Below are positions 27,860 to 42,850 of a stretch of 64,000 bases of DNA, one piece after another (position 1 is the first letter of the stretch; the number at the start of each line of letters is the position of its first letter). Origin of the DNA: Geoalkalibacter subterraneus (GTDB taxonomy: Bacteria > Desulfobacterota > Desulfuromonadia > Desulfuromonadales > Geoalkalibacteraceae). The stretch covers positions 3,183,001 to 3,247,000 of the forward strand of contig NZ_CP010311.1 of NCBI RefSeq assembly GCF_000827125.1. Reading direction: 5' to 3'. Made by a program: the position numbers and the translations under genes. The notes beneath the pieces were generated by a model. It did not search any database. It saw nothing but the letters and a program-made list of their open reading frames with translations, and was not told where the DNA came from.

Positions 27860-30292
27860 TTAAAGGGAGAGTGACATCAGTTCGAGCATCTCCCGTGCCA
27901 TCTTTTGCCACTGCTCACTATTGGCCTCATCGACCAGTCGCTGAAAAAGGTTAAGCGCCTGCTCTTTGCGTCCCTGCTGCTGCATGATCTGCCCGATTCG
28001 ATACAGGGCCTGGTCGGCGGTCTCCTCCACGGCAACAAGCTGTTGGAAATAGGGCAGCGCTTCCCCGGGACGGTTGGACCGCAGCAGCGATTCGGCCAGC
28101 AGCAGCAGATCCCCCGCATCATCTTCAAGATCGAGTTCCGGGGCCAGACGCATAAGAGCGCTGGCCGCATCCTCATAACGGTTGACCTCAAAGCAGAGGC
28201 GACCGGCCCACAGATCAAGTTCGGGAGAGGCGGGGCGACCGGTGGCAGAGAGGAGGTCGGCGGCCTGCTCCCGGCGATTCAGTTCCATCAGCGCCCGGGC
28301 TTCGAAAAGCAGAACCGAAGCGCGATCCTCTCCTTCGGGATATTCCCGGGCGTACTGCCGGGCGTATTCGACTGCCAGACCGTGCTGGCCGCTGAGAAAG
28401 AGAATTCGCACCAGCGGAAGATACAAACCCCGCTCGCGCCCCGGCACCCGGTTGTTGTCCAGCATGAAGAGGTAGACGCGAGAGGCGCGCTGCAAAAGAG
28501 CCATGTCGCCATAGGCGCCCGCCAACCGTTCCAGAAAATCCCAGCTGATGCGACGATCAAGCAGAATCCGCCGGTGGCGCTCCACCATCACCAGAGCCTG
28601 CAGATAGTCTTCGTCGGCAATCATGTCCTCAATGACCCCGGGCAGGATCTCGCCCAGCAGCGCTTCGGCATGGGGACGCAGATCTCCACTGAAATGGTTG
28701 CGGACAAAATCTTCCAGCACCGTCACGCAGCGCCTGTGATCGCGATTGAGGTACAGAGCCAGGGCCTGCTTAAAGCGCGCCTCTTCCCGCAGGGCCCGCT
28801 CGGAGAGATTCTCCGCATGGTGGCCGTAATCCATCACCGCCCAGGCCAGCACTTTTTCGCCGCCGTCGAGCACCGCCAGATCAATCTGGCGCACGGCAGC
28901 ACGCTGCCCGCCTCGACTTTCGGGAAAAGCCACCAGGATCCGGTCAAGCAGGCGGCGTGCCCCTTCGATATCGTCCCGCCGCAAAGCAGCCTGCACCTGG
29001 GCAAAATAAGCGAGCCCTTCATCCGGATGACCGCTGATCAGCTGCGCCAGTCGGGCGTAGGCCTCCTCGGCTTTCAGGTAAGCACCGCCGCGGTAAAGAG
29101 CCCGGGCGAAATGCTCCAGTGCATTCGGGTCACGCAAAGGGCCATACTGCTCCTCCATCTCCGCAAAAATTTCTGCAGCCTCTTTATTACGTTCCAATCC
29201 GGACAAACTGCAGGCATACCCGAGGCGCCGCAGAGCATCTGTCGTTCCGCTCAGATTGAACGAAGACAGGGTTTCATGGGCCTGATCATATTTACCCTGC
29301 GCCAGAAGCAATTCTCCCCGCAACAACAACAGGCGCGGGAGAAGAAAATCGTCTGTCTCGATCTGAGACAACGCCTGCTCCACCTCGTAAAGCCCCAGAT
29401 AGGGGTCGCCATTGACGGCATGGCAGTAGCCGGCAAGATAGCGCGCTCTCAGGCGTTGTGCGCTGTCCGGGTAGTTTTCCACGAAGCGGCGCAGGGTGGC
29501 GCCGGCTGCTTTGGGGCGACCATCGCGCAGCAGGGCCTCGGCATAAAACACCAGGAAAGCCTCGCGCACCGCACCTTCAAGAGGTTTATCCAGCAGCGTC
29601 GCGGCACTCTGGCGCGCCTTCGCCCAATCCCCTGCGTCCGCCTCTGCTCGCGCCTCATTTAATGCAGGCGGCAGAGCCTTGTCGTCCACCCCGGCGGGCA
29701 ACTGCACCAGGGGCATGGACGGCAAGGAAAATCGTGGCGCCAGCTCGAAGGAAAAAGGCGTCTCCCATTCCTTGAAAAACCTTCGCCAATCTTCACTGTA
29801 GGGCGAACCGGTCGATTTGGTCACCGTCGCGCCGTCCGCCCCAGCCTGAGAAAAGCCCGTAGTCTGGTCGACAATGGCAAGACGCTGCCCCCTCCCCCGT
29901 TCCGACCAGTCGACATGCAGCTGGACCTGCCCTTGGCCTGAATCATACCGGACCCGGGCATCGGTTGGCGGACGGCGAAACAGAAAGGACACCATCAGAC
30001 CTTCGCGCCGGCTGATCAGTAGAGTGCGAATGAGACTTTCATCTTCGGGCAACTGGCGGAAGCCAGCGGCCACTTCAGTGCCTGCAAGCATCACATCGAC
30101 TCGCTGCCCCGAAACAACAACCTCTGGTCGAACCGGCCCGGAAAGATCCATAAAGATGCGGGCCTGCTGGCGGCTCTGCTCTTTCTGCATCCCCCTCAGC
30201 ATGACCTCTTGCGCAGCTGCCGTGACAGGCAGCATAGTCAACCAGATCAACAGCCAGATCAGAACTCGAAATTGTTTTTTCAAAAAATCCAC
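27860..30292 (-). CDS. Exported TPR-repeat protein upstream of flgB
   Basis: A large (about 810 residues) exported protein with an N-terminal signal peptide (RVLIWLLIWLTMLPVTAAAQ). An AMIN-like beta domain follows (about 30-130: QQARIFMDLSGPVRPEVVVS, then GFRQLPEDESLIRTLLIS). From about residue 215 to the end there are many tetratricopeptide-type repeats, such as LRRFVENYPDSAQRLRARYL, AYARLAQLISGHPDEGLAYF and LPYFQQLVAVEETADQALYR. Function is unknown; a periplasmic scaffold for rod or motor assembly is plausible from its place at the head of the flgB operon. The frame opens at GTG 30328. The GTG at 30292 and the TTG at 30283 both give a better signal peptide and follow AAGG or GGGGGTGG. Confidence 0.82.
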   Translation of the reverse strand: MDFLKKQFRVLIWLLIWLTMLPVTAAAQEVMLRGMQKEQSRQQARIFMDLSGPVRPEVVVSGQRVDVMLAGTEVAAGFRQLPEDESLIRTLLISRREGLMVSFLFRRPPTDARVRYDSGQGQVQLHVDWSERGRGQRLAIVDQTTGFSQAGADGATVTKSTGSPYSEDWRRFFKEWETPFSFELAPRFSLPSMPLVQLPAGVDDKALPPALNEARAEADAGDWAKARQSAATLLDKPLEGAVREAFLVFYAEALLRDGRPKAAGATLRRFVENYPDSAQRLRARYLAGYCHAVNGDPYLGLYEVEQALSQIETDDFLLPRLLLLRGELLLAQGKYDQAHETLSSFNLSGTTDALRRLGYACSLSGLERNKEAAEIFAEMEEQYGPLRDPNALEHFARALYRGGAYLKAEEAYARLAQLISGHPDEGLAYFAQVQAALRRDDIEGARRLLDRILVAFPESRGGQRAAVRQIDLAVLDGGEKVLAWAVMDYGHHAENLSERALREEARFKQALALYLNRDHRRCVTVLEDFVRNHFSGDLRPHAEALLGEILPGVIEDMIADEDYLQALVMVERHRRILLDRRISWDFLERLAGAYGDMALLQRASRVYLFMLDNNRVPGRERGLYLPLVRILFLSGQHGLAVEYARQYAREYPEGEDRASVLLFEARALMELNRREQAADLLSATGRPASPELDLWAGRLCFEVNRYEDAASALMRLAPELDLEDDAGDLLLLAESLLRSNRPGEALPYFQQLVAVEETADQALYRIGQIMQQQGRKEQALNLFQRLVDEANSEQWQKMAREMLELMSLSL

Positions 30293-30399
30293 CCCCGAAC
30301 ACCTTCTCGCTAAAGAAATCCTTTTCACTTTTCATGATGCAGTGATCGCCAACCCGCCCTCAGAATCGACGGAAGCGAGTCAGCTGGGAAAGAATTAAA

Positions 30400-30757: not shown

Positions 30758-33217
30758 ATGAGCAACATAAGCGACGATCAGATTGAAATTCTCCAGGAGT
30801 TTGTCACCGAAAGCCGGGACATGATCGAACAGCTCGAACCGACCATTATCGAGTTGGGGCAGAGCTGCCACGACGCCCAGTGCTGGGAAACCCTTGGATG
30901 CCCGCAAACCGACTGCGCGCGCCATGGAAAGCAGATGCAATACCCTTGCTGGCTGCAGATGGGGAATATCGGCGATGGCAACGGCAGCTGCATCTACACC
31001 GAATCGAAACAGGACTGTCTGCAGTGCCGGGTGTTCCAGATGATCAACGGCGACGGCCCCACCATGAACGCCATCTTCCGCCTGTTTCATTCCATGAAGG
31101 GCAGCGCCGGGTTTCTGGAACTCAACCACATTACCCGCGCGGCTCATACGGCGGAAAATCTGCTGGACCTGATCCGCAACGGCGGCGTGCGCATGGAAGC
31201 AGAGCATGTCAACCTGCTGTGCTCCGCCTGCGATTTCGCCAAGGACGCTCTCGACTTCGTCGATGCCAATTTCTCCGACGAGGGGATGGCCGAAGACGCC
31301 GAGAAAATCTCGTCGCGCCTTGAAGCCGCAATCAGCGAAGCGAAACAAAGCGCCGCCGAACAACCAGGTGCCTGTCCCCCGGCTCCTCAACAGGAAGCGC
31401 CCCCCGCTGATACGCAGGAGGCGCAAGACGAGGAAGTCCTCGATTTCGAACTCAACATCACCCCCGAAATGCTGGAGAAGTTCGTCCAGGAAGCGGATGA
31501 ACTGCTGCAGAACGCCGAGCAGGATCTGCTCAAATGGGAGGAGATCCGCGACAATCCTGATATCATCGGCGCCCTGTTCCGCAACATTCACAGCTTCAAG
31601 GGCAACTGCGGCTTTTTCGGCTTCGCCGAGATGGAGCGACTCTCGCACCAGATGGAGACCATTCTCGATGCGGTCAAATCCGGCCGGGATTTCGGCTCCA
31701 AGCCCGGCGATCTGATGCTCAACCTGATCGACGTGCTGCGCGACGCCATCGACGATCTGCAGAAAGGGGGCGCAGGCAGCGTTGCCGACCTCGAGCGCCA
31801 CCTGGAGGAGCTGGGCGCCATTCTGGAAAGCGGCATCGACCTGGAAACACCCGAGCGCAAAGAGGAACCTGCCGAAGAAACCCCACCGGCGCCGCCCGAG
31901 CCGAGCGGCACAGCACCGCCGGCGGAGGAGAAAAAAACGCCCGAAGCAGCAAAACCTGCGGCAAAGCCCGCCCCGGAAGCGAAAGCCCAGCCCCAGCAGG
32001 CCAAGCCGCCGGCCAAGGCCCAGGCGCCGGCGCGGCGCCAGGACATCCGCGTCGACCTGGAAAAGCTCGACAACCTGATCAACCTCATCGGCGAGATCGT
32101 CATCGCCGAGAACATGCTGATCCGCAATCCCGATCTCGACGGGCTTGAGCTGGAGAACTTCCAGAAAGCCGGCCAGCACATGAGCAAGCTGGTGCGCGAG
32201 CTTCAGGAGATGGCGATGGTGCTGCGCATGATCCCGGTTTCGGGCCTGTTCCGGCGCATGATTCGCCTGGTGCACGACATCTCGCTCAAAGCCGGCAAGA
32301 AAGTGGAACTCAAACTCTCCGGCGAAGAGACCGAGATGGACAAGACGGTCATCGAGACCATCACCGATCCGCTGGTGCACATCCTGCGCAATTCCTGCGA
32401 TCACGGTATTGAGCCGCCGGAAGAACGCCTCAAGCTGGGCAAGCCGGAAAAAGGCGTGGTGCGCCTGTCAGCCTGCCATGAAGAGGGCGAGGTGTGGATC
32501 ACCATCGAGGACGACGGACGCGGACTCGATCGGGACAAACTTCTGGCCAAGGCGATCAGTAAAGGCCTGGTGGAGGGCGACGGCTCCGACATGTCGGACA
32601 GGGCGATCTACAACCTGATTTTCGCCCCCGGCTTTTCTACCGCCGACAAGATCACCGACATCTCCGGCCGCGGCGTCGGCATGGACGTGGTGCGCCAGAA
32701 CCTGGACAAAATCAAGGGACGGGTCGAGGTCAACAGCAAGCCCGGCAAAGGCACGCGCATCAATCTGCGCATCCCGCTGACGCTGGCCATCATCGACGGC
32801 ATGCTGGTGCGCACCGGACAGACCAAGGCGATTCTGCCGACGCTGGCGATCTGCGAAGCGTTCAGGCCACGGGGAGATGCCCTGACCATTACCCCGGATG
32901 GCGACACCCTGATCCGGGTGAGGGAGAGCTTCTACCCCGTACTTCGCCTTTACGAAGTTCTGGGCAAGCAGCCCGATTCGGAACAGATCACAGATGGCAT
33001 CCTGATCACCCTGGAGAACCAGGACAACCGCCTGTGCCTGCTGGTGGATGAAATTCTCGGCCAGCAGCAGACGGTCATCAAGGGTCTTTCCGACTACATC
33101 GGCTCGGTACGCGCCGTTTCGGGCTGCACCATCATGGGCAACGGCGAAGTCTGCCTGATTCTCGATGTAGGCAGTCTTATGGAGATCAGTCACGGCGAAA
33201 GTCTGGCCGGGGCCTGA
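30758..33217 (+). CDS. cheA: Chemotaxis histidine kinase CheA with cysteine-rich insert and two HPt domains
   Basis: CheA phosphorylates CheY and CheB on cue from chemoreceptors. The 819-residue protein has a first HPt domain (phospho-site His at about 111, FHSMKGSAGFL). Its helices are interrupted at residues 37-90 by eight cysteines, including two CW pairs (C42-W43, C64-W65) and a final CxxC (87-90). A second HPt follows (His about 277, NIHSFKGNCGFFGF), then a Pro/Ala/Glu linker (about 365-425) and a dimerisation domain. Next come the ATPase (N box ILRNSCDHGIEPPEERL, G boxes DDGRGLD and SGRGVGMDVV) and a CheW-like C-terminus. It is first in a che operon on the plus strand. The insert may bind metal or sense redox state; that is inference. 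Confidence 0.95.
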   Translation: MSNISDDQIEILQEFVTESRDMIEQLEPTIIELGQSCHDAQCWETLGCPQTDCARHGKQMQYPCWLQMGNIGDGNGSCIYTESKQDCLQCRVFQMINGDGPTMNAIFRLFHSMKGSAGFLELNHITRAAHTAENLLDLIRNGGVRMEAEHVNLLCSACDFAKDALDFVDANFSDEGMAEDAEKISSRLEAAISEAKQSAAEQPGACPPAPQQEAPPADTQEAQDEEVLDFELNITPEMLEKFVQEADELLQNAEQDLLKWEEIRDNPDIIGALFRNIHSFKGNCGFFGFAEMERLSHQMETILDAVKSGRDFGSKPGDLMLNLIDVLRDAIDDLQKGGAGSVADLERHLEELGAILESGIDLETPERKEEPAEETPPAPPEPSGTAPPAEEKKTPEAAKPAAKPAPEAKAQPQQAKPPAKAQAPARRQDIRVDLEKLDNLINLIGEIVIAENMLIRNPDLDGLELENFQKAGQHMSKLVRELQEMAMVLRMIPVSGLFRRMIRLVHDISLKAGKKVELKLSGEETEMDKTVIETITDPLVHILRNSCDHGIEPPEERLKLGKPEKGVVRLSACHEEGEVWITIEDDGRGLDRDKLLAKAISKGLVEGDGSDMSDRAIYNLIFAPGFSTADKITDISGRGVGMDVVRQNLDKIKGRVEVNSKPGKGTRINLRIPLTLAIIDGMLVRTGQTKAILPTLAICEAFRPRGDALTITPDGDTLIRVRESFYPVLRLYEVLGKQPDSEQITDGILITLENQDNRLCLLVDEILGQQQTVIKGLSDYIGSVRAVSGCTIMGNGEVCLILDVGSLMEISHGESLAGA

Positions 33218-33286
33218 AAGCAGACGTCGGACATGTAGCTGCGGCAACTTGAGGTTCTCCTCTTTATCAATAAAGTCCGGAAATCA

Positions 33287-34177
33287 ATGAGCGATCACTC
33301 TCCCTGCGCCCCGGTACGGTCGAAAGACGCCGCCCCTGCCACGGGCGGCGCCATGACCATCGGCGACGAAGAATTCAATCTGCTGCGCCGGCTGATCAAA
33401 AGCCGCTTCGGCATCAACCTCACTGACCAGAAGCGCTCGCTGGTGGTGGGGCGGCTGCAGAAGCTGCTGCGCGGCGAGGGGTTCGTTAATTTCAAGCAGT
33501 ACTACGAATACCTGGTCAACGATAAAAGCGAACGGGGTCTGAGCGAGCTGATCAATCGCATCTCGACCAACCACACGTATTTCAACCGGGAAAAGGCTCA
33601 TTTCGATTTTTTTCAGCAGACCGCCCTGCCGGCGGTGGTCGAGATGATGCGCCGCCAGAACAACCGCGACCTGCGCATCTGGTGCGCGGGCTGCTCGTCG
33701 GGAGAAGAGCCCTACACCCTGCAGATGCTGATGATGGAACATTTCGGCAGCGAGTATTCGAAATGGGACGCCGGCATCCTGGCGACCGACATCTCCGAGC
33801 GGGTGCTCTCCATCGCCCGCGCCGGCATCTACCCGCAGGAGCGGGTGGCGCAGCTGCCGCAGCCGCTGCAGAATAAATATTTCCGCAAGCTGCCCGACGG
33901 CAATTGCCAGGTCACTGAAGCGGTGCGCAAAGAGATCGTTTACCGGCGCTTCAACCTGATGAACGAGAAATTCCCGTTCAAGAAACCGTTTCACATGGTC
34001 TTCTGTCGTAACGTCATGATTTACTTCGATCAGCAGACACGCGAGGGGCTGGTGCAGAGATTCAATCAATCCACTGTCAACGGGGGGTATCTGTTCATCG
34101 GGCATTCGGAAACCCTCGGCCGCAATCACGCACTGTACCGCTATGTGATGCCCGCCGTTTTCCAGAAAGGGGCCTGA
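33287..34177 (+). CDS. cheR: Chemotaxis methyltransferase CheR
   Basis: CheR methylates receptor glutamates using S-adenosylmethionine. The 296-residue protein has the N-terminal helical domain (FNLLRRLIKSRFGINLTDQK), then ISTNHTYFNREKAHFDFF (conserved T-x-F-x-R-E region). The SAM site is RIWCAGCSSGEEPYTLQML, with LATDISERVLSIARAGIYP and FHMVFCRNVMIYFD. The start may be the ATG at 33287 or an internal ATG at 33353; neither has a strong ribosome-binding site. Confidence 0.95.
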   Translation: MSDHSPCAPVRSKDAAPATGGAMTIGDEEFNLLRRLIKSRFGINLTDQKRSLVVGRLQKLLRGEGFVNFKQYYEYLVNDKSERGLSELINRISTNHTYFNREKAHFDFFQQTALPAVVEMMRRQNNRDLRIWCAGCSSGEEPYTLQMLMMEHFGSEYSKWDAGILATDISERVLSIARAGIYPQERVAQLPQPLQNKYFRKLPDGNCQVTEAVRKEIVYRRFNLMNEKFPFKKPFHMVFCRNVMIYFDQQTREGLVQRFNQSTVNGGYLFIGHSETLGRNHALYRYVMPAVFQKGA

Positions 34178-34183
34178 GAACCC

Positions 34184-35248
34184 ATGGCGATAAGAAAAGT
34201 CCGTGTTCTGATCGTCGATGACTCCGCTCTGGTGCGCCAGATCCTGACCCAGGGTCTGTCCGGCGATCCCAACATCGAAGTCGTCGGCTCCGCAGCCGAT
34301 CCCTACCAGGCGCGCGACAAGATCGTCGCCCTCAAGCCCGACGTCCTCACCCTCGATGTCGAGATGCCGCGCATGGACGGGGTGGAGTTTCTGCGCCGCC
34401 TGATGCCGCAGCACCCCATGCCGGTAGTGATGGTCAGCTCGCTGACCCAGAAGGGCAAGCAGATCACCATCGACGCGCTGGAAGCCGGCGCGGTGGATTT
34501 CGTCGCCAAGCCGACCTCCGACGTGGCGCGCGGGCTGCAGGCAATGATGCTGGAGTTGCGGGTCAAGGTCAAAATCGCCTCGACCGCCAACGTCGAGCAC
34601 TGGAAAAACCGCCCGCCCGCAGGCGCTCCCCGCCCCGCCGTGGTTTCCAGCGGCGCGCTGGCTGAATCGACCGACAAGGTTATCGCCATCGGAGCCTCAA
34701 CAGGCGGCACCGAAGCGATCAAGAAAGTGATCACCCGTTTTCCCGCCACCTCACCCGGAGTCGTGATCGTACAGCACATGCCGGCCGGCTTTACCCGCAT
34801 GTTCAGCGAACGCCTCAACCAGCTGTGCGCCATGGAGGTCAAGGAGGCCGAACACGGCGACCGCGTCATGTCGGGACGGATTCTGGTCGCACCCGGGGAA
34901 AAACAGATGCGGGTGATTCGCTCTGGCGGATTCTACCAGGTGCTGTGCGAGCCGGGGGAAAAGGTCAGCGGCCACTGCCCGTCGGTGGACGTGATGATGC
35001 ACTCGGTGGCCAAGCATGTCGGCCGCAACGCCGTTGCCGCCATGCTCACCGGCATGGGCGCCGATGGTGCCGACGGCATGAGCGCCATGCGCAAGGCAGG
35101 CGCGCGCTGCATCGCACAGGACGAAGCCACCTCGGTGGTCTTCGGCATGCCCAAAGTGGCCTTTGAACGCGGCGGAGCCGAACGACTGCTGCCCATTGAC
35201 GACATCGGGCCGGCCCTGCTGCGGCTGGTAACAGAGAAGCGCGCATGA
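34184..35248 (+). CDS. cheB: Chemotaxis methylesterase/response regulator CheB
   Basis: CheB removes receptor methyl groups and deamidates receptors when phosphorylated by CheA. The 354-residue product has a receiver (VLIVDDSALVRQIL, phospho-Asp in LTLDVEMPRMDGVEFL, Lys in FVAKPTSD). A short linker leads to the methylesterase domain with the catalytic triad region: Ser in IGASTGGTEAIK, His in VIVQHMPAGFT, Asp in LTGMGADGADGM. It is coupled to cheD by a 4-bp ATGA overlap. Confidence 0.97.
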   Translation: MAIRKVRVLIVDDSALVRQILTQGLSGDPNIEVVGSAADPYQARDKIVALKPDVLTLDVEMPRMDGVEFLRRLMPQHPMPVVMVSSLTQKGKQITIDALEAGAVDFVAKPTSDVARGLQAMMLELRVKVKIASTANVEHWKNRPPAGAPRPAVVSSGALAESTDKVIAIGASTGGTEAIKKVITRFPATSPGVVIVQHMPAGFTRMFSERLNQLCAMEVKEAEHGDRVMSGRILVAPGEKQMRVIRSGGFYQVLCEPGEKVSGHCPSVDVMMHSVAKHVGRNAVAAMLTGMGADGADGMSAMRKAGARCIAQDEATSVVFGMPKVAFERGGAERLLPIDDIGPALLRLVTEKRA

Positions 35249-35733
35249 GTCTACTTGTTCTCGGCATCGGCGACCTGGGCGCCACTAAAAACCGCGACGA
35301 CCTGGTGAAGACCTACGCCCTAGGTTCCTGCGTGGCGGTCGTCATGCTCGACCCCAAAACGCGCACCGTCGGCATGGTGCACTGCGCCCTGCCCGAGGCT
35401 CGCATCAATCCGGACAAGGCCAAGGAGCGGCCCGGCTATTTCGCCGACACCGGCATCCCCATGCTGCTGCGCGAGATGGCCAAGCACGGCTGCGACCCCT
35501 CAGGGCGCGGCTTTATCGTGAAAATGGCGGGCGGCGCGCGGGTCATGGACCCCAACGACACCTTCAACATCGGCAAGCGCAACCATCTTGCGGCGCGCAA
35601 GGCTCTCTGGGCGCTCGGCCTGGGCGCAGTAGCCGAGGATGTGGGCGGCAATTTCAGCCGCACTGTCACCGTTACGGTGCGCAACGGCGAGGTGATGCTC
35701 TCCTCGCCGGGCCGCCCGAACTGGAAATTGTAA
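35245..35733 (+). CDS. cheD: Chemoreceptor glutamine deamidase CheD
   Basis: CheD deamidates receptor glutamines and, in other bacteria, binds CheC. The 162-residue protein carries the family's catalytic pattern: Cys in YALGSCVAVVMLDPKTRTVG, His in GMVHCALPEA and the GGARVMD block, with NIGKRNHLAARKALW. It is in the same operon as several CheC/CheX-type phosphatases, which fits CheD-CheC cooperation. Start codon overlaps the cheB stop. Confidence 0.96.
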   Translation: MSLLVLGIGDLGATKNRDDLVKTYALGSCVAVVMLDPKTRTVGMVHCALPEARINPDKAKERPGYFADTGIPMLLREMAKHGCDPSGRGFIVKMAGGARVMDPNDTFNIGKRNHLAARKALWALGLGAVAEDVGGNFSRTVTVTVRNGEVMLSSPGRPNWKL

Positions 35734-35743
35734 AGGGACGCTT

Positions 35744-36616
35744 ATGGAACCGACTACGGACCGCAAAGCGATCATCGAAGCCATCCAGAAAGCGCCCATG
35801 CTCTCGCCCAACGCATCGCGGCTGCTGCAGGTCACCTCGACCAAAGATCACGAGATGGCCGAAGTGATCGAGATCGTCAAAACGGATGCCCACCTCACCG
35901 CGCGGGTGCTCAAGATCGTCAACTCGGCGGCGTTTGGGCTGCTTTACGAGATCACCTCCATCGAGCGCGCCGTCAATTACCTGGGCGAACGCATGGTGGT
36001 GGGGCTGGCCATCGGCGATTGCGCCTCGCAGCTTTTTCAAAAGCCCATGGAGGGCTACGACGGTGCCAGGGGCAGCCTGTGGCAGCATGATCTGCTCACG
36101 GCCATCGCCTCACGCGAGGTGGCAGCTTACTGTACCGTACCCCTCAACCGCGATTTGGCCTTTACTGCAGGGCTGCTGCACGACATCGGCAAAGCGCTGA
36201 TCTCCGATTTTCTCAAGGGCACCGCGCCGGACATGCTGCGTGAAATCGAGGAATCGCTGCTCAACGACTATGTGGAAGGGGAACGCGAAACCCTCGGCAT
36301 CGATCATCCCGAAGCCGGCGCGGTGCTGGCCGATGCATGGAAACTGCCGCCGGCGCTGATTTCAGCGATCCGCCACCATCATGCTCCACGTGAAGCCGCT
36401 GCTGAACACCAGGCGCTGACTTATGCCGTGCATCTCGGCGATATTGTCGCCATGATGGCCGGCTGCGGCACCGGCGCCGATACGCTGCGCTATCACATGG
36501 ATGAGTCCTATACCAGGCTGTTCAAACTCGATCAGGACAGTCTGTACGGCATCATCCTGACCGCTAACGAAGAATTCGAAAAGATCACCACCTCAATGGC
36601 CGAACTCAAGGAGTAA
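35744..36616 (+). CDS. HDOD-domain signalling protein
   Basis: HDOD proteins resemble HD phosphohydrolases but usually act as signalling or scaffold modules. The 290-residue product is one long HDOD domain. It contains APMLSPNASRLLQVTSTKDH, then LTARVLKIVNSAAFGLLYEI, the HD-like LLHDIGKALISDFLKGTA and LIDHPEAGAVLADAWKLPPA-type motif (read as GIDHPEAGAVLADAWKLPPA). The LLHDIGK pair is retained, so catalysis cannot be ruled out. It sits between cheD and a receiver gene, so a link to chemotaxis is likely by context. ATG follows AAAGGGA. Confidence 0.9.
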   Translation: MEPTTDRKAIIEAIQKAPMLSPNASRLLQVTSTKDHEMAEVIEIVKTDAHLTARVLKIVNSAAFGLLYEITSIERAVNYLGERMVVGLAIGDCASQLFQKPMEGYDGARGSLWQHDLLTAIASREVAAYCTVPLNRDLAFTAGLLHDIGKALISDFLKGTAPDMLREIEESLLNDYVEGERETLGIDHPEAGAVLADAWKLPPALISAIRHHHAPREAAAEHQALTYAVHLGDIVAMMAGCGTGADTLRYHMDESYTRLFKLDQDSLYGIILTANEEFEKITTSMAELKE

Positions 36617-36621
36617 ATGGC

Positions 36622-37026
36622 GTGGATAGAATTATTATCGCCGACGACTCGGAAACAGCGCGCATGTTCATCAAACGCTGCCTGGAAATCATCGGCCTGC
36701 GCGATGCGCAGTTTCTCGAGGCCGCCAACGGACGCGACGCCCTGCAGCTGGCCAAGGAGCAGTTCGCGAAAGGAGAGCCGGTCGACCTGCTGGTCTCCGA
36801 TCTCAACATGCCGGTCATGGACGGCGTGACCCTGCTCAAATGGGTCAAAACCAGCCCCAGGCTGGTGCAGCTGCCGGTGCTGATCATCACCAGCGCAGGT
36901 AACCCGGCCAAGGAGCAGGAGCTTATGGAGCAGGGCGCACTCGCCGTTCTCAACAAGCCGGTATCGCCCGCCAACCTGCTCAAGGCTCTCGGCTCCATGA
37001 TCGACACGGAGGATGGCTATGCCTGA
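36622..37026 (+). CDS. Stand-alone receiver (CheY-like) protein
   Basis: A 134-residue single receiver domain. The acidic pair and phospho-Asp are intact (IIADDSETARMFI; LLVSDLNMPVMDGVTLL), with Ser in LIITSAGNPAKEQ and the Lys in VLNKPVSPANLL. Translation starts at GTG, 8 bp after AAGGAG. It overlaps the next gene, a CheX-like phosphatase, so the pair may form a receiver-phosphatase couple. It is distinct from the cheY at 37635. Confidence 0.92.
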   Translation: MDRIIIADDSETARMFIKRCLEIIGLRDAQFLEAANGRDALQLAKEQFAKGEPVDLLVSDLNMPVMDGVTLLKWVKTSPRLVQLPVLIITSAGNPAKEQELMEQGALAVLNKPVSPANLLKALGSMIDTEDGYA

Positions 37027-37501
37027 GGCTGCACCAAAACTGCAAAAGGCCATGGAGCAGGCGGTCACCACCACCCTGGAAAACATGGCGTTCATGGAAG
37101 CGCGCGCGCTGCATAAGGACCACGACTGCCTCGGCTCTTCCCCGGTTTACTGCGCCAACCTGCTGGTGCATGACCCCATTCAGGGGGAGCTGGTGATGAT
37201 CATGTCTGAAGAGCTGCTTAAACAGATCGCCGGCAATATCTACGCCCTGCCGGAGGAAGAGCTAAACGACCGGATGCTCGCCGACCTTATGAGCGAGCTG
37301 CTCAATACCATCGCCGGCATTTTTCTGACCGAGTTGCTGCCGAGCGACCAGACCTTCGGTATAGGCCTGCCCTCCATCAGCCGCGACGAGTGCCATGAAC
37401 TCGAACCACCGGTGGAGCGCTGGCATTTCCAGATCGACGGCCGACATTTCTGTTTCAGCGCCGGGGGCAGCGCCTGGCGGAAGTTTGAGGAAGAGAACTG
37501 A
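37019..37501 (+). CDS. CheX/CheC-type phosphatase-like protein (1)
   Basis: CheC/CheX/FliY proteins dephosphorylate CheY-P through a D/S-x3-E-x2-N active site. Here the motif is D89-L-M-S-E93-L-L-N96 with a downstream Pro 22 residues after the Asn (GIGLPSI). The 160-residue protein is otherwise divergent (N-terminus PEAAPKLQKAMEQAVTTTLE). The ATG at 37019 was chosen because GGAGG (37008-37012) is too close to the first in-frame ATG at 37013. It overlaps the end of the receiver gene. Substrate preference is unknown. Confidence 0.78.
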   Translation: MPEAAPKLQKAMEQAVTTTLENMAFMEARALHKDHDCLGSSPVYCANLLVHDPIQGELVMIMSEELLKQIAGNIYALPEEELNDRMLADLMSELLNTIAGIFLTELLPSDQTFGIGLPSISRDECHELEPPVERWHFQIDGRHFCFSAGGSAWRKFEEEN

Positions 37502-37510
37502 ATCTATAAA

Positions 37511-37598
37511 CTCTCCTCCCACCAGCGGGGAGGCTGGGAGGGGGTGAGCTTTCACAACAACCCCCACCCCGGCCCTCCCCCGCTGGGAGAGGGAGAAA
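37511..37598. repeat. BIME-like G/C palindromic repeat, copy C (inverted pair)
   Basis: Third inverted pair of the family (CCACCAGCGGGGAGGCTGGG facing CCGGCCCTCCCCCGCTGGGA). It splits the operon between the CheX-like gene and cheY. Confidence 0.75.
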
Positions 37599-37634
37599 AT
37601 CAAAAACATAACTCACTGCAAGGAGGATAAAACC

Positions 37635-38006
37635 ATGGCAGCTAAAGTACTGATTATCGACGATTCCAACACCATGCGTAAAATCGTGCAGCGCTCTCTG
37701 CGCCAGGCAGGCTTCGAATTCGAAAAGATCCTCGAAGCCGGTGACGGCCAGGAAGCTCTCGGCCTGCTTGAAAATGAAGAAGTCGATTTCATTCTCTCCG
37801 ACATCAACATGCCCAACATGGACGGCATCGAGTTCCTGCGGCAGAAAAAGGACAACGCCGCCATCAAGGATATTCCGGTGGTCATGATCACCACCGAGGC
37901 GGGCAACGACATCCTGGGCGAAGCCAAGTCTCTTGGCGCCAAGGGCAGCATCAAAAAGCCCTTCACTGCGGACCAGGTTCAGGACGTTCTTGGCGAATTC
38001 CTCTGA
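37635..38006 (+). CDS. cheY: Chemotaxis response regulator CheY
   Basis: CheY-P binds the flagellar switch. The 123-residue receiver has all key residues: VLIIDDSNTMRKIVQ (acidic pair), phospho-Asp in FILSDINMPNMDGIEFL, Thr in VVMITTEAG, and Lys in GSIKKPFTADQV. A strong AAGGAGGA ribosome-binding site precedes the ATG. Two CheX genes and the tandem phosphatase follow directly, so this is the likely target of those phosphatases. Confidence 0.95.
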   Translation: MAAKVLIIDDSNTMRKIVQRSLRQAGFEFEKILEAGDGQEALGLLENEEVDFILSDINMPNMDGIEFLRQKKDNAAIKDIPVVMITTEAGNDILGEAKSLGAKGSIKKPFTADQVQDVLGEFL

Positions 38007-38068
38007 TACTGCGGGCGGCTGCCACTGCGGCGCCGTCTCTCATACCTCTCTAACAACAGGAGTCGACC

Positions 38069-38530
38069 TTGGATCTGGCAAAAATCATTACGGATGCCAC
38101 CCAGGAAATTTTCGAGACCATGATCATGGTGGAGGTCACCCCCGGTGAGCCCAGCAGGGAAAACGGGCAGACGCACTACTGCACCGTGTCGGGCATGATC
38201 GGGCTGGCAGGGCTTTTCAAAGGGATGATCGCCATCCACGCCCCGGATGAAGTGGCCAAATCGATCACCTCGAATTTTCTCGGGATGGATGTGGACGAAG
38301 TCAACGAAGACGTCACCGACGCCATCGGCGAGCTGGCCAACATGCTGGCGGGCAACGCCAAAATGGCCCTCAGCCAGAACGGCAAGGACATCACCCTTTC
38401 GATCCCCTCCACCATCTCCGGTGAGGAATACACTATTAGCTGCGCCATCGACACCGATCGTGTCGTGATGCCGTTTACCATGGAGCAGGGCAAATTCGTG
38501 GTGGAACTGCAGGTCGAAAAGCAGGAGTAA
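38069..38530 (+). CDS. CheX family CheY-P phosphatase-like protein (2)
   Basis: A 153-residue CheX-type protein. The active-site motif is D84-A-I-G-E88-L-A-N91, with the downstream Pro in LSIPSTISGEEY. CheX enzymes are dimeric CheY-P phosphatases lacking a receptor partner. The start is TTG at 38069 with AGGAG 7 bp upstream. It is about 60 bp after cheY and shares the same residue numbering of the active site with the next gene, so the two look like a tandem duplication. Confidence 0.9.
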   Translation: MDLAKIITDATQEIFETMIMVEVTPGEPSRENGQTHYCTVSGMIGLAGLFKGMIAIHAPDEVAKSITSNFLGMDVDEVNEDVTDAIGELANMLAGNAKMALSQNGKDITLSIPSTISGEEYTISCAIDTDRVVMPFTMEQGKFVVELQVEKQE

Positions 38531-38593
38531 GGCGGTGAACTCGACGCATCAGACAACCACTGAGCCGAACGCCGACAAGAGGATTGACAGAAC

Positions 38594-39046
38594 GTGAACT
38601 ATGGTCAGATAATCGCCGATGCTGTCACGGATGTTTTCTCCACCATGCTGATGATAGAGGTCAGCCCGCAGGACGCCTGTGATCAGTCCATGCTCTTCAT
38701 CCCCGCCGGCGCCTCGGGAATGCTCGGTTTTTCCGGGGATGTGGCCGGGATGCTCACCATCCACTGTCCTGAGGCGGTGGCGCTGAGCATCACCTGCGGT
38801 TTTCTCGGCATGGAGGTAAGCGAGATCGGCGAAGAGGTCAAGGATGCCATCGGAGAACTGGTCAATATGGTGGCGGGCGGCCTCAAAGACGGCCTGGCCG
38901 GGCAGGAGCGCGACATCAAGCTCGCCATTCCCACCACCATCGCCGGCCGCTCCTTTCGCATCTCCTCGAAGAGCGACGTGGGGCATCTGTGCCTGCCTTT
39001 CGACATGGAAGCCGGGCGTTTTTACGTGGAATTGAAATATAAATAA
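38594..39046 (+). CDS. CheX family CheY-P phosphatase-like protein (3)
   Basis: A 150-residue CheX paralogue with the motif D84-A-I-G-E88-L-V-N91 and Pro in LAIPTTIAGRSF. N-terminal NYGQIIADAVTDVFSTMLMI parallels DLAKIITDATQEIFETMIMV of the neighbour. The start is GTG. The two proteins may form homo- or heterodimers (inference). Confidence 0.9.
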   Translation: MNYGQIIADAVTDVFSTMLMIEVSPQDACDQSMLFIPAGASGMLGFSGDVAGMLTIHCPEAVALSITCGFLGMEVSEIGEEVKDAIGELVNMVAGGLKDGLAGQERDIKLAIPTTIAGRSFRISSKSDVGHLCLPFDMEAGRFYVELKYK

Positions 39047-39083
39047 TCAGTGAAGATCCCGCCAGAGGGATCGGGAAAGTTGC

Positions 39084-41069
39084 GTGAAAAAAGCCGTCGT
39101 TGACAGCGTTCTCAAATCCGCGATCGGCAAGCTCGCCGAGGAGATTGCCGCCCTGCTCGGCGAGGAGTTCAAACTCTCCGAACCGAACATGGCCGCGCTT
39201 TCCAAGGAAGAGTTTTTTGAAACTCCGCGGGAGAAGTGCGCCCTCACCCGGCTGAAAACCAGCGGCGATGCTGAAGGCGAGGCGGCGGTCGTCCTGCCCC
39301 TCAAAGACGCCATTCTGCTGGGCGGCACTCTGATCATGCTGCCCGATGACGAGCTGGCGGAAAAAGTCAAAAATCCCGACCTCGCCGGTGAAGAGGGCGA
39401 CGCCTTCGGCGAGATCGCCAACATCCTCGCCGGCTCTATCACCTCGACCTTCGAGGAGATGTTCCCCAAAAAACTTCACTTCGTTAAAAGCGCCTGCGAA
39501 AACCTGGTTCCCACCAAGGTCGACATGGACTCCGACCAGCCCTTTGCGCCAGGGCACTACCACGTCACCGCCAGCGGAATGACCCTGGCCGGCAAAAAGC
39601 TCGGCAATATTGAAATTGTGCTCCCTTTTGCCCTGCTCGGCATGGAGCCGCCGCAAGGGGAACAGACCAAAGCGAAAACTGAATCAGGGGATAAGGCGCC
39701 GGAGAAGAAAACGGCCGCAAGCACCAGCGAGGAATCAAGCGCCGAAGAGCGGCAGGCTGCCGCCCGGGTCACCTCAGAGGCGCTGTCGGAAGACCCCGGC
39801 GCGGACGAGGAGAAATCCGACGTAGCCGCAAAAGAGCAGAACGAGCCGGAGGAGGTCGCGAAGGAGGAAAAGGAGGAGACGGCAGAGAAGCCGCAGCCTT
39901 CAGCTGAAAAGCCCGAGGCGGAGAAGAAAAAAGGGGTGCCGCGCAAGGTCGTCGACAATGTCCTCGACAGCGTTTTCAAAGAGATCGCCAAAGATCTCAG
40001 CGACCTGATCGGCAAGACCCTCAAGTGTGCCGGCCCCTCTTATCAACCGCTGAGCAAAGAGGATTATCTCGCCCTGCCGCGCGACAAGGGCGCGATTTCA
40101 TTTCTTGAAACCAGCGGCGACGCAAAGGGCAATGCCTTTCTCATCGTGCGACAGAAGGACGCCATTCTGTTTGGCGGCACCCTGGTCATGCTGCCGGAGG
40201 AGGAGCTGCGCGCCAAGGTCAAAGCCTGCGATTTCGACGGCGAGGAAGGCGATGCCTACGGTGAGGTGGCCAACATCATCGCCGGGTCTCTCGCCAAAGT
40301 CATCGGCGAGCAATATCCGCGCAAGCTGCACTTCAAGCGCACCAAGGTCGAACCTTTCATCCCCACCAAGATCGACCCCGGTGGCAACGAACCCTTCGCT
40401 CCCGGGGAATACTATCTCGGCACCTGCCAGATGGCCCTCGACGGCAAAGCCCTGGGGGAACTCGATCTGCTGTTTCCACTGGGGATCCTCGACGTTCACA
40501 TCGAGCAAGAAAAGCCGGCAGAGGCAGCTGAAGACCAGGGAGAAGGGGCTGCCGCTAAATCGGTCGCCGGCGATGGCGGGAAGAAAGCCCGCCCCGCATC
40601 CACCAGTTCATCATCCATCAGCGCCGACGACCTGGCCGCCCTGCAGGCGGCCGCCACCACAGACGAAGATGACGACAACCGGCCTGCCACCGTTCTGGTT
40701 CTGGCCGATAACAATGAAGCGGCCGCCCCCTTCAATGACGTACTGGCAGAGCATGGAATCACGCACCAGAGCCTGAGCTTCAAGGACAATATCAAGCAGT
40801 CGGTGCAGGGCAGAAATGTGACGGGGATTTTCCTGGTGATGGAAGAAGTCGGTGAACAGGGGATGGCCACGGCCATCAAAATAAAATCGGCTTTAAAAAC
40901 CGGCACTCCGCTGATCATGGCCGGCCCCGCCTGGACCCGCAGCGCGGTTCTGCAGGCGGTTCGCTACGGCGCCTGCGACATCCTGGTCACACCGGCCAAC
41001 TCCGAAGAAATCAGCGAAAAAGTCAGCCGCCATTTCGGCACGGTAACAGCCACAGCGGCGGCTCTGTAG
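39084..41069 (+). CDS. Tandem CheC/CheX-like phosphatase with C-terminal degenerate receiver
   Basis: A 661-residue protein of unusual build. Residues about 1-190 and 291-475 are two homologous domains (LSKEEFFETPREKCALTRLK vs LSKEDYLALPRDKGAISFLE). Each has a D-x3-E-x2-N phosphatase motif: D106-A-F-G-E110-I-A-N113 and D390-A-Y-G-E394-V-A-N397. A Lys/Glu-rich linker (about 192-290) separates them. Residues about 535-655 resemble a CheY fold (TVLVLADNNEAAAPFNDVLA, ACDILVTPANSEEISEK). The usual phospho-Asp is lacking there (GIFLVMEEVGEQG instead). The start is GTG. Function in CheY-P removal or as a sink is inference; no close named family is recalled. Confidence 0.82.
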   Translation: MKKAVVDSVLKSAIGKLAEEIAALLGEEFKLSEPNMAALSKEEFFETPREKCALTRLKTSGDAEGEAAVVLPLKDAILLGGTLIMLPDDELAEKVKNPDLAGEEGDAFGEIANILAGSITSTFEEMFPKKLHFVKSACENLVPTKVDMDSDQPFAPGHYHVTASGMTLAGKKLGNIEIVLPFALLGMEPPQGEQTKAKTESGDKAPEKKTAASTSEESSAEERQAAARVTSEALSEDPGADEEKSDVAAKEQNEPEEVAKEEKEETAEKPQPSAEKPEAEKKKGVPRKVVDNVLDSVFKEIAKDLSDLIGKTLKCAGPSYQPLSKEDYLALPRDKGAISFLETSGDAKGNAFLIVRQKDAILFGGTLVMLPEEELRAKVKACDFDGEEGDAYGEVANIIAGSLAKVIGEQYPRKLHFKRTKVEPFIPTKIDPGGNEPFAPGEYYLGTCQMALDGKALGELDLLFPLGILDVHIEQEKPAEAAEDQGEGAAAKSVAGDGGKKARPASTSSSSISADDLAALQAAATTDEDDDNRPATVLVLADNNEAAAPFNDVLAEHGITHQSLSFKDNIKQSVQGRNVTGIFLVMEEVGEQGMATAIKIKSALKTGTPLIMAGPAWTRSAVLQAVRYGACDILVTPANSEEISEKVSRHFGTVTATAAAL

Positions 41070-41096: not shown

Positions 41097-42572
41097 CTAT
41101 TCACTTTTGCGGCCGAGGCTTCTGAACAGGCTGTCGAGCTGCTTTTTTTTGATTTTTTCCAGCAGGGTGGTGCGCTTGAGGTTGAGCAGCGCCGCCGCTT
41201 CCTTCTTGTTGCCGCCGGTACGGCTGAGCGCCTGCAGGATCAGCCGATCCTCAAAATCACTCACCAGCGCGTTAAAGTCGGCTTGATCCTCCAGCGGTTC
41301 CGGAATCGGGACTCCTTCACCGCGCCCGCTCAGGGCGACAGCCTCCGAAGTCGTCACCGCTTCTGCGGCCTGCTCCTCGGCCAGAGCCTCAAGGTTGAGC
41401 CCTTCCCGGTATTTCTCAGGCAGGTCGGCGGCCCGCACCAATCCATCGGCATGCAGGATCGCCAGGCGCTGCACCAGGTTTTCCAGCTCGCGCACGTTTC
41501 CGGGCCAGGCATAATTTTTCAATGCCGCCATGGCATCGGCGGCAAACCCGGTCAGCCCGCGCTTGCGCCCCCGGTTGTATACCTGCATGAATTTTTCAAT
41601 CAATAACGGGATGTCGTCCTTGCGGTCGCGCAGCGGCGGAATCTGCAGCGGCACCACGCTCAGACGATAATAAAGATCCTCGCGAAAGGAGCCGGTCCGC
41701 ACCGCCTCTTCAAGGTTGCGATGGGTGGCGGCCACAATGCGGACATCGGCTTTAATCGGTTTCAGCCCGCCCACCGGTTCGAACTCTTTCTCCTGCAGCA
41801 CACGCAGTAGCTTGGCCTGCAAAGCCGGCTTCATATCGCCGATTTCGTCGAGAAACAGTGTGCCGCCCTCGGCATACTGGATGCGCCCCTGCTTCGATTG
41901 GGCCGCACCTGTAAAGGCGCCCTTGATGTAGCCGAACAGTTCACTTTCCAGCAACTCATCGGGGATCGCCGCACAGTTGAGGGGCACGAAGTTCTTGCCG
42001 CTGCGGGGGCTGTAGGCATGAATCGCCTTGGCCACCATCTCCTTGCCGGTGCCGCTGTCGCCCTGGATCAGGACTGTGCTTTCGCCATCCTCCGCCACCC
42101 GCTCGACGATCTCGAACAACGACTGCATCTGTGAAGAGGCGCCGATGATGCCGTGGAATCCTTCAGTTTTGCGAATTTTGGGACCGCGTTTTTCCTTATG
42201 AATGGCCAGGTCGTGATGCTCGATACTGCGGGCCGCAACAATCACCGCCTCGTCATAATGGTAGGGTTTGTTGAGATAGAAAAGGGCGCCGGCCTGCAGC
42301 GCCTTGACCGCCGACTCACGATCGCCGACAGGCAAAGCGATCACCGAAACCACCTCGGGGTTGCGGCGCAGCACCTCCTTGATCAATACGATGCCACGTC
42401 CTTCGGGAAACAGGTCGGTCAGAAGAAGGGAAATATCCTGGCTGTCCAGCATAGAGAGCGCATCTTCCGGAGAGTCTGCCTCCAGAACGAGGCAGTCGAT
42501 CTCCTTGCGCAACATAACCGCGAGTGCTTCGCGGTTACGGCAATCACCGTCGACGAGCAGAATGGAACGCAA
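41097..42572 (-). CDS. Sigma-54-dependent response regulator (FlgR/FlrC/FleQ type)
   Basis: Activates sigma-54 promoters after phosphorylation. The product (about 491 residues) has a receiver (ILLVDGDCRNREALAVML, phospho-Asp in SLLLTDLFPEGRGIV, Lys in YLNKPYHYDEAV). The AAA+ domain contains GDSGTGKEMVAKAIH, the sigma-54-contact loop GAFTGA, GGTLFLDEIGDMKPALQAKL and the arginine-finger region. The C-terminal Fis-type helix-turn-helix is NKKEAAALLNLKRTTLLEKI. The frame reaches 42710, but the extension has no homology. TTG at 42572 follows AGGGAG. It lies opposite the che operon and is the natural activator of the sigma-54 promoters at 16.3 and 30.4 kb (inference). Confidence 0.93.
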   Translation of the reverse strand: MRSILLVDGDCRNREALAVMLRKEIDCLVLEADSPEDALSMLDSQDISLLLTDLFPEGRGIVLIKEVLRRNPEVVSVIALPVGDRESAVKALQAGALFYLNKPYHYDEAVIVAARSIEHHDLAIHKEKRGPKIRKTEGFHGIIGASSQMQSLFEIVERVAEDGESTVLIQGDSGTGKEMVAKAIHAYSPRSGKNFVPLNCAAIPDELLESELFGYIKGAFTGAAQSKQGRIQYAEGGTLFLDEIGDMKPALQAKLLRVLQEKEFEPVGGLKPIKADVRIVAATHRNLEEAVRTGSFREDLYYRLSVVPLQIPPLRDRKDDIPLLIEKFMQVYNRGRKRGLTGFAADAMAALKNYAWPGNVRELENLVQRLAILHADGLVRAADLPEKYREGLNLEALAEEQAAEAVTTSEAVALSGRGEGVPIPEPLEDQADFNALVSDFEDRLILQALSRTGGNKKEAAALLNLKRTTLLEKIKKKQLDSLFRSLGRKSE

Positions 42573-42661
42573 TGCTCTCTCCCTGTTTACATAAATGACA
42601 GGGCCGCGACCATCGAAAAACAGACGGGCGAACCCCACCCCTGCCCAAATAAAAGCAATCA

Positions 42662-42680
42662 TTGCCGCCCTAAAAAGGCG
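42662..42680. other. Small GC hairpin upstream of the sigma-54 regulator
   Basis: GCCGCC and GGCGGC form a 6-bp stem with an A-rich loop, about 90 bp upstream of the regulator start. It may sit in the leader of that gene. No further signal is seen. Confidence 0.3.
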
Positions 42681-42707
42681 GCCTGCCAACCCCTTTGGGG
42701 GCACTCG

Positions 42708-42850
42708 CAAAAACTCAGCGGATGGCTAAGCAAAAATTTCGTCCGACAAGGCTTGGTGGTTTTTCAAGGGCGAAGGCATACATCAGCGATGTCGAGGTCC
42801 TGAAAAAAACGCAGTAACGCCGTAGGGCGAACTTTTTCCGACGCCATCAA
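42708..42850. repeat. Structured dispersed repeat (about 143 bp) upstream of the sigma-54 regulator
   Basis: The stretch from CTCGCAAAAACTCAGCGGAT to GACGCCATCAA is palindromic around GGCATACAT...ATGTCGAGG, with flanking arms TTTTTCA and CCTGAAAAA. Its design (ends of fixed sequence, internal palindrome) parallels the tandem units at 265-543. I recall similar sequences scattered in Geobacter/Desulfuromonas genomes, but cannot verify that here. With the regulator leader it accounts for the 368-bp gap 42573-42940. Confidence 0.6.

Follow-up and report, generated by a model that had tools for sequence, protein, structure and literature searches.

A tandem CheC/FliY-like protein ending in a pseudo-receiver in a chemotaxis operon of Geoalkalibacter subterraneus

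An 11-gene che operon beside a flagellar cluster

We analysed a 64,000-nucleotide stretch of the chromosome of Geoalkalibacter subterraneus (contig NZ_CP010311.1, positions 3,183,001 to 3,247,000; hereafter the window, in whose coordinates positions are given unless the chromosome is named), which contains a chemotaxis operon. The assembly comprises 3,717,645 bases and the chromosome 3,475,523. The operon holds 11 genes (30758 to 41069) in the order cheA-cheR-cheB-cheD-HDOD-cheY1-cheXa-cheY2-cheXb-cheXc-BIG, where cheR and cheB were named by eye and from gene order, and BIG is our working name for the 661-amino acid (aa) protein encoded at its end. BIG carries two CheC/FliY-type domains with one site each, followed by a CheY-like domain that lacks the residues of phosphorylation, and it belongs to a real, conserved and unnamed protein family. 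The operon is divergent from a tetratricopeptide repeat (TPR) gene and a flagellar cluster (FliF, FliG, a FliI-type ATPase, FliK, FlgE, FlhA, FlhB, FliM, FliN, FliO, FliL, MotA and MotB), and convergent with the gene of a sigma-54 activator. The receivers, the CheX proteins and the parts of BIG are the following:

36622 to 37026, forward strand: CheY1, intact receiver (Pfam, 78 bits)
37013 to 37501, forward strand: CheXa (Pfam CheX, 44.7 bits), motif DLMSELLN at 37283 to 37306
37635 to 38006, forward strand: CheY2, intact receiver (Pfam, 92.1 bits), a conserved neighbour of the CheX and BIG genes
38069 to 38530, forward strand: CheXb (Pfam CheX, 96.8 bits), motif DAIGELAN at 38318 to 38341, with CheX relatives in the PDB
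38594 to 39046, forward strand: CheXc (Pfam CheX, 80.7 bits), motif DAIGELVN at 38843 to 38866
39084 to 41069, forward strand: BIG, tandem CheX-like protein with a pseudo-receiver (open reading frame [ORF], Pfam, AlphaFold2 [AF2])
39084 to 39647, forward strand: repeat 1 of BIG, aa 1 to 188, like CheC, FliY and the FliM middle domain (AF2, VIA)
39399 to 39422, forward strand: active-site motif 1, DAFGEIAN, aa 106 to 113
39660 to 39893, forward strand: linker 1, aa 193 to 270, probably disordered (predicted local distance difference test score [pLDDT] mostly under 50)
39936 to 40499, forward strand: repeat 2, aa 285 to 472, same fold as repeat 1 (AF2)
40251 to 40274, forward strand: active-site motif 2, DAYGEVAN, aa 390 to 397
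40518 to 40673, forward strand: linker 2, aa 479 to 530, low confidence (AF2)
40683 to 41051, forward strand: pseudo-receiver, aa 534 to 656 (AF2, fold match, missing phosphorylation residues)
40920 to 40994, forward strand: conserved stretch AGPxWTRxxVxxAVxYGxxDIxxTP, aa 613 to 637

The initial annotation, made from the sequence alone, had counted five D-x3-E-x2-N sites in this operon, one in each of three small proteins and two in the 661-aa protein, and all five are indeed there. CheXa, CheXb and CheXc lie above the cut-off of the Pfam CheX family (PF13690, 27 bits) and carry one site apiece, whose Asp, Glu and Asn are unchanged in 46/46, 120/120 and 47/47 aligned relatives, respectively, each relative being assigned by best match to the window's three proteins. 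The reading frame of the first small protein, previously placed at 37019, is real, but its start is an ATG at 37013, of which 37019 is the third codon and also a Met. The two receivers, at 36622 and 37635, are intact CheYs by Pfam and by residue counts, with the phosphorylation residues present in 55/55 members of the CheY1 family and in 98 to 100 of the 100 members of the CheY2 family. Elsewhere on the chromosome, further frames encode a two-stretch CheC (3360044 to 3360439) and a fourth CheX (2722800 to 2723087). CheZ had no match in the G. subterraneus genome, and a separate cheW is absent from the window's che operon.

The two phosphatase-type domains of BIG

The AF2 model of BIG (57 sequences; pLDDT 82.4, predicted template modelling score [pTM] 0.60) shows three confident domains split by low-confidence linkers, with a pLDDT mostly above 90 in both repeats. 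According to the initial annotation, the fusion would fail if the repeats did not fold as CheC/CheX/FliY domains or if the C-terminal part was not receiver-like; the structure prediction that it called for gave two repeats with a CheC/FliY/FliM-like fold and a receiver-like C-terminus (AF2, Foldseek, VIA), and the proposed fusion therefore survives. The structural matches of repeat 1 were the FliM middle domain (Z 20.0), the FliY of Thermotoga maritima (4hyn, Z 19.3) and CheC (Z 17.5), and that of repeat 2 was the CheC-like 3qta (Z 15.9; all VIA). A profile of the repeats also matches T. maritima CheC (1xkr, E 5.8e-5), with the motif aligned to CheC 103-129. The two repeats are 45% identical in protein and 59.1% in DNA, with no identical run longer than 13 bases.

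BIG resembles three known phosphatase families and differs from each of them. It shares with CheX a single D-x3-E-x2-N per domain and its gene stands beside true CheX genes, but it scores 26.0 bits with PF13690 (under the 27-bit cut-off), is fused in tandem to a pseudo-receiver, and is placed by Foldseek closer to FliY, CheC and FliM than to CheX; CheX was not among the VIA matches listed, which is no evidence of a difference. It lies above the cut-off of the Pfam CheC family (PF04509; 24.7 against 22 bits) and its profile reaches 1xkr, but CheC has two sites per domain and the repeats of BIG have one each. With FliY it has in common a CheC-family domain, the Glu/Asn motif and the flagellar gene context. 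However, FliY is a CheC-FliN fusion, whereas BIG has no FliN domain (no FliMN_C match at E 1 or better) and consists of one-site domains, repeated one to three times, and then the pseudo-receiver.

The BIG family provided 192 repeats from 109 distinct sequences, one of which is cut off before the site, leaving 191 to be scored. Glu is present in all 191, Asp in 190 and Asn in 189. Such retention of Asp, Glu and Asn, in the CheX relatives as well as in nearly all BIG repeats, is more than would be expected by chance, and a phosphatase function is the likely prediction for BIG.

Could BIG instead be a structural part of the switch, a FliM-like tandem that joins the C-ring or binds FliG and whose phosphatase activity is secondary? 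FliM middle domains lead the structural matches (Z 20.0), and GGTLIMLP, among the best-conserved stretches outside the active site, sits by eye at the position of the FliM GG loop, which binds FliG. Given that BIG has no FliN-type domain, that the catalytic residues are kept in nearly all members, and that FliM and FliN are both already encoded in the window, we regard this role as quite improbable.

A receiver fold without phosphorylation residues

Folded alone, the C-terminal domain of BIG is a (beta-alpha)5 receiver (AF2; pLDDT 91.6, pTM 0.85), with the receiver 2qxy as best fold match (Z 16.4). Sequence profiles recognise it poorly: the Pfam receiver model gives no match to full-length BIG at E 1 or better, its score for the last 130 aa taken separately is 15.8 bits (PF00072 cut-off 30.2), and the NCBIfam PleD model covers aa 520 to 647 at E 0.048. 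The receiver of one relative (L160) does pass PF00072, with 40.1 bits.

That the protein ends in a CheY-like fold without the phospho-Asp, as first described, is confirmed by the model and by 106 aligned pseudo-receivers. MAFFT set the phospho-Asp column two residues past the strand end, and three registers were therefore counted: Asp occurs in 0/106 at the end of beta3 (586), in 9 at 587 and in 15 at 588. The first acid is Asp in none and Glu in 5, the second is Asp in 62 or Glu in 18, the Thr/Ser column holds Ser in 2 (one column earlier, Ser or Thr in 8), and the receiver Lys is replaced in 100 and kept in six, all from the same-class loci L156-L161. In the beta3-alpha3 loop, 106/106 lack five residues that 155/155 CheY rows contain.

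By contrast with these losses, W617, T618, V622, A625, G629 and P637 are found in 106/106 pseudo-receivers. The information content is 3.2 to 3.7 bits from beta4 to the beta5-alpha5 loop and 1.5 to 1.6 bits in alpha1, beta2 and alpha2; the same parts of CheY2 hold 3.1 to 4.3 and 2.9 to 3.9 bits, respectively. Thus, the pseudo-receiver differs from CheY2 in having lost constraint on the opposite side, and not in being more constrained on the beta4-beta5 side. In CheY, the alpha4-beta5-alpha5 face binds FliM. Receiver folds without phosphorylation are known from the N-termini of FleQ, KaiA and TadZ and from iREC; among 53 members, these gave only weak matches (E up to 1) in 7, 5, 3 and 1 cases, respectively, and the BIG domain differs from them in being fused to phosphatase-type domains. 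A docking or regulatory role is the likely prediction for the pseudo-receiver.

The initial annotation had suggested that the pseudo-receiver could dock to the phosphatase sites or compete there, and this proposal fared less well. It would amount to self-regulation, with the pseudo-receiver folded onto BIG's own sites, or onto those of CheXb or CheXc, and blocking them until displaced. The domains are tethered by flexible linkers, and the conserved stretch takes in two loops, beta4-alpha4 and beta5-alpha5, that lie close to the former active site; both features would suit such an arrangement. According to PMC3035606, the Asn of CheC/CheX/FliY phosphatases orients water and an acidic residue forms a salt bridge to the receiver active-site Lys. 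With this Lys replaced in 100/106 pseudo-receivers and the beta3-alpha3 loop residues missing in 106/106, docking in the manner of CheY is disfavoured; moreover, one genome described below (G109) has lost both catalytic Asn and yet keeps the pseudo-receiver signature. We consider self-regulation of this kind rather unlikely.

Distribution of the family and its tie to flagella

The domain order of BIG had been said to match no named family, and the family search agrees, returning a conserved family without a name. A scan with the single BIG protein as query found no relative. In the order and phylum counts, a strong BIG match was defined as E at most 1e-40; FliG was scored by FliG_C over its cut-off. 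Out of 58 genomes (own included), 37 match BIG, 33 of them strongly, which rules out a one-off fusion; 31 have both BIG and FliG_C, two have BIG only (drafts 78 and 81% complete), none has FliG only and 25 have neither. In 136 genomes of the order (own included), strong BIG matches were obtained in 84 and FliG_C in 80: 78 genomes carry both, six BIG only (76-93% complete), two FliG only (96 and 80%) and 50 neither (Fisher p 7.5e-28, relatedness not corrected for), so that within the order the presence of BIG follows that of FliG. A sample of 395 genomes of the phylum, with up to five candidates scored per genome, gave 144 matching genomes, most of them weakly and mostly through what we read as general receivers, which were dropped before the strong count; strong matches remained in 20, all 20 with FliG_C.

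Names are available for 80 of the 184 confirmed loci; most of these carry the label Desulfuromonadales or Deltaproteobacteria, or Desulfobulbaceae/Desulfocapsaceae, and the set also includes two drafts of Desulfohalobiaceae and one with the label Chloroflexi. The core cheY2-cheXb-(cheXc)-BIG, flanked by the TPR gene and the sigma-54 activator, persists in many loci from which the other genes of the operon are absent. Six same-class loci (families f22 and f24, at a guess of Geobacter type) have the order cheY2-cheXb-BIG-TPR gene. For two of these six, the individual ORFs were listed: basal-body-like ORFs (by eye) follow the BIG module, with a FliG_C match at the far end.

Repeat number and repeat history

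The 109 distinct sequences divide into 75 with two repeats and a receiver, 29 with one repeat (6 cut at a contig edge), four with three repeats and one fragment. A careful tree was built from 53 of the 184 usable repeats, in rows of our choosing and leaving out L109 and two Desulfohalobiaceae drafts. In five of the six two-repeat lineages, repeats 1 and 2 of the lineage pair with starred support, namely in the window's family, f5, f19, a Geopsychrobacteraceae-type group and Desulfobulbaceae/Desulfocapsaceae, with f18 as the exception. A quick tree paired fewer lineages with stars, carried a long-branch warning and left the two Desulfohalobiaceae drafts unpaired. Since repeats pair within lineages, either doubling recurred or the repeats were homogenised; the history is one of independent doublings or of gene-conversion homogenisation, which the trees do not separate.

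A simple history with one ancient doubling was rejected, with all repeats 1 as one clade at p 5.2e-8 and all repeats 2 as one clade at p 1.1e-73 in the approximately unbiased test, which presumes groups named before the tree, the quick tree having already been seen. Two three-repeat members have recent-looking duplications, judging from the DNA identity of their repeats: 81.6% between repeats 1 and 2 of L116 (labelled Desulfocapsa), and 69.7% in L130 (labelled Proteobacteria).

Changed sites and other C-terminal modules

Neighbouring genes were tabulated for the 86 loci whose upstream sequence covers 2.5 kb or more, 22 of the 108 non-window proteins being dropped for having less. In 84 of the 86, CheY2 and CheXb or CheXc adjoin BIG and D/E/N is intact at every site. 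The two loci without an adjoining CheY2 and CheXb/CheXc both have changed motifs. In L163 (genome G109), Asn is replaced by Lys and Asp in the two repeats; genome-wide, CheXb has no match, and the closest match to CheY2 reaches 35% identity, where three other genomes give 66-71%. In L084 (genome G041, as L053), the Asp of the single repeat is Ala, with Glu and Asn kept, and one CheX match was found genome-wide (E 1.4e-7). Both genomes keep FliG_C and the W-T-R..V..A..YG..DIL signature of the pseudo-receiver. Changed sites in the absence of a neighbouring CheY2, together with a kept signature, are what would be expected if the sites serve CheY2 and the pseudo-receiver has a further role.

Related CheX-like domains from other members of the phylum carry other modules in the C-terminal place. 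In L147-L149, a CheX-like domain is followed by a receiver that is degenerate by eye (L147 reaches 16.0 Pfam bits, under the cut-off). L150 combines a CheX-like domain (Pfam CheX 13.6 bits, also under the cut-off) with a CBS pair (PF00571, 65.7 bits), and L151-L153 have C-termini that are CBS-like by eye; the genes of the CBS group lie between cheY and cheA. All genes of L147-L153 adjoin cheY and, in most cases, cheX and cheA. It looks as if regulatory or targeting modules can be exchanged at this C-terminal position.

These proteins bear on the possibility that the C-terminal module is an input, sensing a ligand or signal and tuning the phosphatase. A CBS pair, CBS-like C-termini and degenerate receivers in the same place would agree with it, as would the invariant W-T and Y/F-G, which could line a pocket. 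Against that stand the lack of any predicted ligand site in the module and the distance of the CBS proteins in their CheX part (A1 profile E 5e-14 to 2e-19, 13.6 bits for L150), and we hold such an input to be unlikely, though deserving of some weight.

A candidate flagellum-dedicated phosphatase

The explanation we favour, to which we assign about an even chance, is that BIG is a multivalent CheY-P phosphatase dedicated to the flagellum, and that its pseudo-receiver has a docking or regulatory function independent of phosphorylation. It builds on the model folds, the conserved sites, the dead receiver, the gene order, the co-occurrence with FliG and the lineage-paired repeats, and goes beyond them in proposing an activity, a substrate, a docking function and the switch as the site of docking. 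CheA would phosphorylate CheY1 and CheY2, CheY-P would act at the flagellar switch, and CheXa, CheXb, CheXc and BIG would remove the phosphate. BIG would do so with a pair of CheC/FliY-type domains that carry a single catalytic Glu/Asn site apiece and are held on flexible linkers with a phosphorylation-dead CheY-like fold. The beta4-alpha4-beta5 side of the latter may serve as a phosphorylation-independent docking or regulatory handle, keeping the phosphatase domains at one place, which we infer to be most likely the motor switch. Elsewhere, it is the FliN part of FliY that holds the phosphatase at the switch.

Several observations weigh against this explanation. BIG misses the Pfam CheX cut-off. 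As CheY2 is equally conserved on the beta4-beta5 side, that side alone is no special signature. Five of the loci L156-L161 keep three or four of the five phosphorylation positions (a generous count), so that the loss is less complete there. The co-occurrence with FliG could reflect mere residence beside the flagellar cluster, and 223 of the 243 FliG_C-positive genomes of the phylum sample have no strong BIG match, which makes BIG a lineage feature. The changed-site pattern comes from two genomes only and was tabulated after L163 had been noticed; L084 has lost only the motif Asp, and a genome-wide search for CheY2 was not made in G041. Finally, the partner of the pseudo-receiver could equally be the receptor arrays, CheA, CheD or a small ligand.

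In textbook cases, the phosphate of CheY is removed by CheZ or FliY, and the place of removal shapes the response. BIG would be an alternative to these, conserved but without a name, in sediment-dwelling bacteria that cycle metals and sulfur, and it includes a dead CheY of its own. The lineages with one, two or three domains, together with the two changed-site cases, offer natural variants on whether site number or placement tunes switching. A more far-reaching proposal, tentative and on balance doubtful, is that BIG is a new switch phosphatase in the place of FliY in Desulfuromonadales- and Desulfobulbaceae/Desulfocapsaceae-type bacteria. An unphosphorylatable CheY mimic would park one to three phosphatase domains at the motor, repeated doubling in evolution would tune the speed of reset, and the mimic's own role would outlast catalysis.

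Related clusters in the literature

A chemotaxis cluster of eleven locus numbers beside the flagellar cluster has been reported from Desulfuromonas (AOP6_0888-0878 / BQ4888_RS06735-06680; PMC8235581). Its authors compared it with a cheA, cheW, cheB, cheR type that lacks mcp, to which cheC, cheD and cheX are added, and termed it a unique type; it belongs to two flagellated strains, the only two of five with cheX (PMC8235581). The section on this cluster describes no tandem protein or pseudo-receiver, and we infer, from the descriptions and not from a comparison of sequences, that it is the same operon type as the window's. For Geobacter, PMC2577667 gives one cheX per genome and no major che cluster close to flagellar genes, and PMC10542144 reports CheA-CheC/CheX fusions in Leptospirae. 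Within the open-licence literature, the accessible text of PMC8235581, PMC2577667, PMC10542144, PMC9321776, PMC2829493 and PMC10579534 does not describe the BIG tandem protein or its pseudo-receiver, and no paper pairing "pseudo-receiver" with "CheX" was found.

Other genes of the operon and its surroundings

The remaining genes of the operon, its two flanking genes and the FliM gene of the flagellar cluster are located as follows:

30758 to 33217, forward strand: CheA, with two Hpt stretches (Pfam)
33287 to 34177, forward strand: CheR, named by eye and from gene order, without a Pfam run; conserved in the loci
34184 to 35248, forward strand: CheB, named in the same way, without a Pfam run; conserved in the loci
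35245 to 35733, forward strand: CheD (Pfam)
35744 to 36616, forward strand: HDOD protein (Pfam)
41097 to 42710, reverse strand: sigma-54 activator, convergent with BIG, a conserved neighbour (Pfam and locus comparison)
27860 to 30328, reverse strand: TPR protein of 822 aa, divergent, between the che operon and the flagellar cluster, a conserved neighbour
13109 to 14101, reverse strand: FliM, with LSKEEIAELLAAV at its N-terminus

The P2 domain of CheA had no Pfam match at E 1 or better. The opening stretch of the window's FliM holds LSKEEIAELLAAV, which we take to resemble the CheY-binding peptide. A strict scan for the sigma-54 consensus returned two minus-strand sites (16309 and 20623), neither of which adjoins the che operon. 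Relative to BIG, the gene of the sigma-54 activator is convergent in many loci but lies on the same strand in f18-type loci. The TPR protein recurs beside the BIG module, including in the same-class loci L156-L161, and our guess would be a periplasmic motor role. Away from the che operon, a Phage_GPD tail-hub-like protein is encoded on the reverse strand at 51400 to 53139, and the next ORF is hydrolase-like by eye.

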